Source of the DNA: Desulfuromonas sp. SDB
GTDB taxonomy: Bacteria > SDB-A
Length of the DNA stretch: 7,058 bases
Assembly (NCBI GenBank): GCA_001412365.1
Contig: LKUE01000401.1
Span: 1 to 7,058 of the forward strand
Reading direction: 5' to 3'
A program made the translations under genes and the position numbers. The notes below the pieces were generated by a model that saw only the letters and a list, made by a program, of their open reading frames with translations, had not been told where the DNA came from and searched no databases. This document shows positions 5,169-6,226 of the stretch, in pieces (positions within the stretch are counted from its first letter, which is position 1; every line of letters begins with the position of its first letter).

Positions 5169-5768
5169 TTACATTTCATTTTTCTTTTGGATAAACCACG
5201 CTGAAAATCCGGCAGCCAGTGATATTTTAATAAGATCTCCCAGGATAAAGGGGAATGATCCCAGGCATAAAAGTTTCCAAGGATTAAGTACTGTTCCGGT
5301 CAGGCAATAATGCCAATAAGCCAGATAAGACATACCCGGAAGATGAATTAAAACAAAATTAGCAAACAGCATAATTTGAAATATTTTAAATGGGGAAATC
5401 TGCTTCCGATTCACGGCATAACCCACAAAATAAGCGGCTAACAGGAATCCCATAAGATATCCGGTGGTAGGACCGGTTAAATAAAGCCATCCCTGCATGC
5501 CTCCGGCGAAAAAAGGGCCAACCGCAGAACCCAGTACAATATAGATCAATTGACTTAAACTGCCCCATTTTTTTCCCAACAGTGCACCCCCAGCAAGAAC
5601 CACCATTGTCTGAACAGTTAGGGGAACAGGGGTAAATGGAAGAAAAAATTTAATCTGAGCTGATATACCAGTTAACAGAGCAAATAATCCGGAAAGGAGT
5701 AATCCATACCACAGTGAACTATAGCTAAAATCTATTGTACTCTTTTCCAATATTTTTATTTTTATCAT
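5169..5768 (-). CDS. bioY: BioY-family biotin transporter, ECF S-component
   Basis: A 199-residue integral membrane protein that captures biotin for an energy-coupling-factor transporter. About six hydrophobic helices are visible. Family signatures are present: 'PFTPVPLTVQT' (44-54), AGGALLGKKWG (59-69), the GPTTGYLMGF loop (99-108), and SFPFILGDLIK (171-181) with the conserved Asp178 and Lys181 of the biotin site. Length is normal for BioY and nothing is missing. A strong Shine-Dalgarno (GGAGG, 5774-5778) stands five bases before the ATG. No EcfA or EcfT gene is in the window, so it would use a shared module encoded elsewhere, as group II S-components do, or act alone. It heads a minus-strand unit with the PAS and acetyltransferase genes. 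I found no canonical BirA operator upstream. Confidence 0.95.
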   Translation of the reverse strand: MIKIKILEKSTIDFSYSSLWYGLLLSGLFALLTGISAQIKFFLPFTPVPLTVQTMVVLAGGALLGKKWGSLSQLIYIVLGSAVGPFFAGGMQGWLYLTGPTTGYLMGFLLAAYFVGYAVNRKQISPFKIFQIMLFANFVLIHLPGMSYLAYWHYCLTGTVLNPWKLLCLGSFPFILGDLIKISLAAGFSAWFIQKKNEM

Positions 5769-5773
5769 CTCTT

Positions 5774-5778
5774 CCTCC
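5774..5778 (-). promoter_or_regulatory. Strong ribosome binding site of bioY
   Basis: GGAGG on the minus strand, five bases (AAGAG) before the ATG at 5768. It is the best Shine-Dalgarno in the window and supports the annotated bioY start. Confidence 0.85.
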
Positions 5779-5805
5779 GTTGAAATTGATCATTTCGGTA
5801 AATAG

Positions 5806-5834
5806 AATATATAGCATAAAAATAATTAAAACAA
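5806..5834 (-). promoter_or_regulatory. Candidate sigma-70-type promoter of bioY
   Basis: On the minus strand TTGTTT (5829-5834) and TATATT (5806-5811) are separated by 17 bases. The -10 matches TATAAT in five of six places, the -35 only in its TTG half. Transcription would begin near 5799, about 30 bases before the bioY ATG. AT-rich sequence makes chance matches likely. Confidence 0.45.
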
Positions 5835-5850
5835 TACTATGATTTTTCCT

Positions 5851-5903
5851 AGATGTCCATGAGTCCTACCTTCTTACAAGAAGATTTAAGTCTGATGACA
5901 TTT
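5851..5903. repeat. Imperfect 53-bp stem-loop in the divergent intergenic region
   Basis: ATGTC (5853-5857) pairs with GACAT (5897-5901). The stem continues inward after a one-base bulge through AT/AT, AG/CT and further scattered pairs. The top is a separate compact palindrome, CTTCTT-ac-AAGAAG (5870-5883). Several mismatches interrupt the stem. If bioY is transcribed from a start farther upstream than the proposed promoter, this would be a leader structure; otherwise it may be a protein-binding site. Confidence 0.35.
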
Positions 5904-5939
5904 ACAAAGATCAATAAAAAGATGATAATTTAAACAATG

Positions 5940-5971
5940 AAAGGTTATCAGATAATTAACTGTTAACCTTT
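5940..5971. promoter_or_regulatory. 32-bp near-perfect palindrome, candidate operator
   Basis: Fourteen of sixteen base pairs are symmetric. Outer arms are AAAGGTTA (5940-5947) and TAACCTTT (5964-5971), inner arms CAG (5949-5951) and CTG (5960-5962), core TAATTA (5953-5958). Only the pairs 5948/5963 and 5952/5959 break symmetry. It sits between divergent genes, 49 bases before the DUF4177-like ATG and about 170 bases before bioY. The two halves resemble BirA half-sites (CTGTTAACC on the plus strand), but they point outward, the reverse of a biotin operator. No T-run follows on either strand, so it is not a terminator. Confidence 0.65.
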
Positions 5972-5987
5972 AAAGAAAGCTGTCAAA

Positions 5988-5993
5988 TATTAT
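5988..5993 (+). promoter_or_regulatory. Weak candidate -10 element for the DUF4177-like gene
   Basis: TATTAT stands about 27 bases before the ATG at 6020. The best upstream partner, TTAACC (5963-5968), is 19 bases away and lies within the right arm of the 32-bp palindrome, so a bound repressor would cover it. The match is weak. Confidence 0.3.
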
Positions 5994-6005
5994 CGTAAAT
6001 TTAAC

Positions 6006-6011
6006 AGGGAG
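6006..6011 (+). promoter_or_regulatory. Ribosome binding site that sets the DUF4177-like start
   Basis: AGGGAG lies eight bases before the ATG at 6020. The longest frame begins at a GTG (6011) that overlaps this site, so the internal ATG is the better start. Confidence 0.65.
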
Positions 6012-6019
6012 TGCTAAGT

Positions 6020-6226
6020 ATGAAATGGGAGTACTGTACTTTGGAATGGTTATGGAATTCCAGCCAAATAAAAATTAATTATCCTTCCGGGAATGAAAAA
6101 CTGTCCCAGGGGAGTTATAATGAAATAGTAAATACATTAAATGAATTGGGAGCAGAAGGATGGGAGTCAGTAAACTGCGTTTCAGGGGGTAACTGGCTGT
6201 TCTGGACTTTAAAACGGGGATTTTAA
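6020..6226 (+). CDS. Small DUF4177-like protein
   Basis: A 68-residue protein beginning MKWEY and containing LNELGAEGWESV (about residues 42-53), then a hydrophobic 'NWLFWTLKR' end. The order MKWEY, L-x-x-LG-x-x-GWE, and a C-terminal LKR is the signature of the DUF4177 family of short bacterial proteins of unknown function, so it appears complete. No signal peptide or membrane helix is seen, and the protein is unusually rich in Trp for its size. The start at 6020 rests on the AGGGAG site. It is the only plus-strand gene, divergent from bioY across the palindrome and convergent with the TPR gene, with one base between the two stop codons. No role can be assigned. Confidence 0.8.
   Translation: MKWEYCTLEWLWNSSQIKINYPSGNEKLSQGSYNEIVNTLNELGAEGWESVNCVSGGNWLFWTLKRGF

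Follow-up and report, generated by a model that had tools for sequence, protein, structure and literature searches.

Results

The DNA analysed here (the window) is the entire 7,058-nt contig C401 of the draft assembly of Desulfuromonas sp. SDB, which comprises 3.14 Mb in 433 contigs (98.7% complete, 3.9% contaminated). As C401 is a small contig in a draft bin with 3.9% contamination, the absences reported below at the genome level hinge on its correct binning. The window carries bioY, encoding a biotin-specific S component (5169-5768, minus strand; Pfam BioY, 113.6 bits), and, divergently on the plus strand, a small ORF of 68 aa from its ATG (6020-6226, with an alternative GTG at 6011; 68-71 aa), the two being separated by a gap of 251 bp. 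The small gene was called DUF4177-like in the initial annotation; a weak similarity is indeed present, but its score (19.9 bits, Pfam) lies under the cut-off of 25. No relative of this ORF was found in 59 other genomes or in viral contigs. The BioY protein is closest to those of Methanobacteriaceae, Omnitrophota and further distant groups, with identity up to 49%, and shares with its counterpart in one other genome (G030) an insertion of ~8 residues that two aligned family relatives lack. From such comparisons, a horizontal transfer of bioY is possible.

The bioY/small-ORF gap contains a 32-bp near-perfect palindrome, AAAGGTTATCAGATAATTAACTGTTAACCTTT (5940-5971). We verified the main elements of its initial description, namely that 14 of the 16 pairs are symmetric, that the two breaks give T/T and A/A when folded, and that it sits between divergent genes. 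An Rfam search returned no match. The palindrome had also been considered far beyond what chance gives, and composition models do make it unlikely: sequence generated from the gap by a first-order Markov model contains 19 sites with at least 14/16 pairs per 10 Mb (~4e-4 for the gap), and a whole-window composition model gives ~0.004 such palindromes per window. However, palindromes are more numerous in real genomes than in random sequence. A census over 858 kb of the 3.14-Mb assembly, with a non-ORF share of ~6% (ORFs of at least 60 aa), retrieved 14 palindromes with at least 14/16 pairs (1 per 61 kb), and 11 of these lie between genes. By the genome's own rate, the probability of such a palindrome in the 251-bp gap is near 0.05, so that the 5940-5971 palindrome is uncommon rather than extraordinary. 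It belongs to a kind that clusters in intergenic DNA, with perhaps fifty members genome-wide. A stronger one, the perfect 32-bp intergenic palindrome ATGTCAAGTATTTTGCGCAAAATACTTGACAT, is found at L214:14455-14486 (G000:C44).

The palindrome is built as AAAGG + TTATCAGATAA + TTAACTGTTAA + CCTTT. Each of the two central blocks is a perfect 11-bp odd dyad with a 1-bp centre: dyad A, TTATC-A-GATAA (TTATCAGATAA), at 5945-5955, and dyad B, TTAAC-T-GTTAA (TTAACTGTTAA), which abuts it at 5956-5966. Their centres fall at 5950 and 5961, a distance of 11 bp or one helical turn, and both dyads conform to the consensus TTAWC-W-GWTAA. This is the arrangement expected of a double operator for two dimers: a pair of dyads with a shared consensus, spaced by about one turn of the helix. 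The two breaks in the large symmetry correspond to the exchange of T..A for A..T (TTATC/GATAA versus TTAAC/GTTAA), with one substituted pair per dyad; they are mutually compensatory in that the large symmetry is spoiled while each small dyad is left intact. These two abutted 11-bp dyads were absent from the earlier description of the palindrome and are the main new result of this work.

For comparison, 400,000 palindromes with 14/16 pairs and matching composition were simulated: both halves held dyads with arms of at least 5 bp in 0.43% of them, and both breaks also fell inside these dyads in 0.034%, values that are indicative and post hoc, as the nested pattern was seen prior to testing. Dyads in both halves were present in none of the 13 other palindromes with at least 14/16 pairs from the 858-kb sample. 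The single dyad TTAWCNGWTAA has 78 copies in the genome, twice the number of its reversed control, and is not clearly enriched in intergenic DNA when compared to other AT-rich dyads.

The palindrome is unique in the genome at up to one mismatch, which rules out the scattered repeat element that had been raised as an alternative. The nearest other copies differ by two or three specified bases, and those examined look like chance occurrences: the one with 2 mismatches (C130) is internal to an NtrC-like gene, and a start codon falls within the one with 3 mismatches (C208). An apparent small interspersed repeat of another sequence, TGTGTTTATC(T/C)GTGGTT(A/T)A, is common to the intergenic positions L104:4554, L105:6459 and L287:1501.

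The initial annotation would count a lack of conservation in relatives against its reading, and no conservation was seen at the bioY loci compared, all of them distant (at most 49% identity). The palindrome is absent upstream of bioY at 20 other loci from whole genomes and at the best 80 GTDB loci, the latter collected by an alignment scan (at most 49% identity), a single-protein scan of GTDB contigs having returned none. The whole-genome comparison includes three other genomes of the phylum, all from one other genus, whose BioY proteins are 42-45% identical. One locus, L176, carries a AGGGTTAATAG...CTATTAACCCT hairpin that has the outer letters in common with the palindrome, but not the nested dyads, and nothing similar was observed at the other GTDB loci. 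As only distant BioY loci were compared, the failure to see conservation says little for or against the palindrome.

With regard to promoters, a match to TTTACA-17-GATAAT (5901-5929, plus strand; 10/12, by consensus only) points toward the small ORF, adjoins the palindrome and ranks in the top two of the promoter-like matches found on the plus strand. Transcription would start at ~5936, which would place the palindrome at ~+5 to +36 of the small gene, a usual location for a repressor operator. Toward bioY, two weaker minus-strand matches were detected (9/12 each, also by consensus only): CTGATA-18-TATCAT at 5922-5951, with its -35 inside the palindrome, and TGGACA-17-TATTGT at 5831-5859, ~80 bp from the palindrome. 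None of these is secure, since six promoter-like matches were obtained where 2.4 +/- 2.0 are expected.

We then consider which regulators the genome could provide. None was recognised among the genes of C401. The assembly holds one match to PF03099, a 226-aa ORF in which the ligase domain starts near residue 50 and a repressor domain is missing; this biotin protein ligase ORF (L035:1360-2040) adjoins a methylmalonyl-CoA mutase-like gene. A search of the assembly for the GntR family (PF00392, E<=0.001) gave no match, while 12 of 14 control genomes were positive; regulators of the BioR, BioL and DhdR types are thus unlikely. No protein of the assembly exceeds the 225-bit cut-off for BioB (the best reaches 84.7), and the organism may therefore rely on biotin taken up from outside.

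Among operators of known proteins, the closest in letters is GTTATCAGATAAC, the footprinted operator of the GntR repressor DhdR from Achromobacter denitrificans (PMC8651671). Dyad A with its flanks, GTTATCAGATAAT, matches it at 12 of 13 bases, as well as none of 300 shuffles did. Both are odd dyads with a 1-bp centre near a promoter, and the DhdR footprint indicates that a dyad of such a shape can be a real operator; that operator is, however, a single site, whereas two dyads abut here and no GntR-family gene was found in the assembly. A Rex-like match within the palindrome is marginal (11/14, p ~0.07). By consensus strings, we found no fit of the palindrome to the motifs of Fur, PerR, CRP, FNR, CIRCE, LexA or NikR, and the best matches to the 28-bp dif (XerCD) consensus, 15/28 and 17/28, fall outside the palindrome, with shuffles doing as well in 90% and 33% of cases, respectively.

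Discussion

We read the palindrome as a candidate double operator, to which a single regulator would bind as two dimers or as a tetramer, and give this preferred explanation about even odds. Because the dyad centres are one helical turn apart, two dimers could occupy the same DNA face, side by side on dyads A and B. A bound regulator would block RNA polymerase and repress the small DUF4177-like gene, the likely effect given the position of the palindrome a short way downstream of this gene's promoter-like element; bioY would perhaps also be repressed, through the weak promoter whose -35 falls in the palindrome. We infer the protein binding, the promoter positions and the direction of control from the sequence. 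The dimeric or tetrameric regulator proposed in the initial annotation, acting over the promoter of the small gene, agrees with this anatomy. An element of this kind is ordinary, and novelty would lie only in its particular regulator, were that found.

The location next to bioY suggests a biotin operator, read by BirA or by BioR, BioL or BioQ, a reading that we find hardly credible. The resemblance noted initially is real as a string, the half GGTTATCAG/CTGTTAACC containing CTGTTAACC, which agrees with the BirA half-site TTGTTAACC at 8 of 9 bases, and the BirA operator (TTGTNAACC-N14-16-GGTTNACAA) likewise forms a large palindrome ahead of bioY, with half-sites of similar letters. Its half-sites, however, face inward across N14-16, whereas here they occur in reversed order, facing outward across an 8-bp gap. 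The best fit to a BirA operator is 9-10/16, equalled or bettered by 46-93% of shuffles, in agreement with the earlier view that this is not a standard BirA operator; the same scan does recover BirA-type boxes upstream of bioY at L017, L139, L142 and L191, but not here. The earlier link to BirA fails on this misfit in spacing together with the ligase, the only one found in the assembly, which lacks the N-terminal helix-turn-helix DNA-binding domain, and BirA control of the palindrome is very unlikely on these grounds. The BioR box of alphaproteobacteria, TTATMKATAA (PMC4494728, PMC4554459), resembles the palindrome in placing an AT-rich TTAT...ATAA dyad before bioY, at times in tandem copies, but it is a 10-bp even motif as opposed to the 11-bp odd dyads described here. 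Its fit, like that of the BioQ motif (BioQ was assessed by motif only), is no better than that of shuffles, and the GntR family, which covers both BioR and the MocR-type BioL, was not found in the assembly.

The spacing of the dyads can also be read as that of a Pho box, which consists of direct TTAACA repeats with 11-bp spacing. The palindrome does contain 11-bp direct repeats of TTAWCW on both strands, TTATCA-N5-TTAACT (plus) and TTAACA-N5-TTATCT (minus), and the genome's only detected OmpR/PhoB-type response regulator (the single PF00486 match in the assembly) lies in a phoP-phoR-porin-pstS-pstC-pstA-like operon whose phoR-porin gap carries TTAACTGAAATTTAACA, with the same 11-bp direct repeat, at L235:7028-7044. 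Unlike a Pho box, the palindrome is fully symmetric; bioY and the small gene are not obviously phosphate genes and none lies nearby, and the statistics give no clear support, as agreement with the Bacillus PhoP box is marginal at 10/12 (p ~0.09 versus shuffles) and the 11-bp repeat spacing is not enriched in intergenic DNA over other spacings. Binding of that response regulator to the palindrome is, in our view, improbable. The operon itself (L235, G000:C165, 2847-9397) has TTAACTGAAATTTAACATTATTTTTATTAACAGTTAAC in its phoR-porin gap, and the very similar TTAACTGATTATTAACATTATTTT is located upstream of a secreted-protein gene in L282, as a possible local Pho box.

A transcribed RNA hairpin, either a 5'-UTR stem in the message of the small gene or a weak terminator for antisense transcripts coming from the TPR gene, is unlikely. 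The 32 bases alone do fold, into 8 bp, a mismatch and 3 bp closed by an 8-nt loop, and many comparable palindromes of the genome are near gene ends. Nevertheless, a U-run is missing on either strand, no intrinsic terminator was found in 5700-6100, the palindrome lies 256 bp beyond the TPR stop with another ORF intervening, and the fold of the 96-nt leader is little better than that of shuffles (z -1.1). The T/T and A/A breaks moreover weaken the hairpin yet preserve the small dyads, and it is this combination of compensatory breaks and intact dyads that speaks for a DNA operator bound by two protein dimers rather than for an RNA hairpin. There is, finally, a modest chance that the palindrome is neutral, having arisen at random or persisted as a relic devoid of function: it is unique and unconserved in the loci examined, and a comparable palindrome is encountered about every 5 kb of intergenic DNA in this genome. 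Its low expectation by composition and the compensatory nested dyads argue against this neutral origin.

A more specific version of the double operator would have it shared by bioY and the divergent small gene, under a regulator not described before, either biotin-responsive or local, in which the DUF4177-like protein may take part. The setting is that of a biotin importer whose assembly yielded neither a BirA-type nor a GntR-type biotin regulator, and we regard this version as a long shot.

The compensation between the two breaks suggests a test of wider use: if the mismatches in a long palindrome cancel out inside shorter dyads, selection probably acts on those shorter units, which helps to tell protein operators from RNA hairpins. 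If the palindrome is an operator, control of the divergent promoter region of bioY and the small gene would lie beyond the biotin regulators known so far, in a phylum that has received little study.
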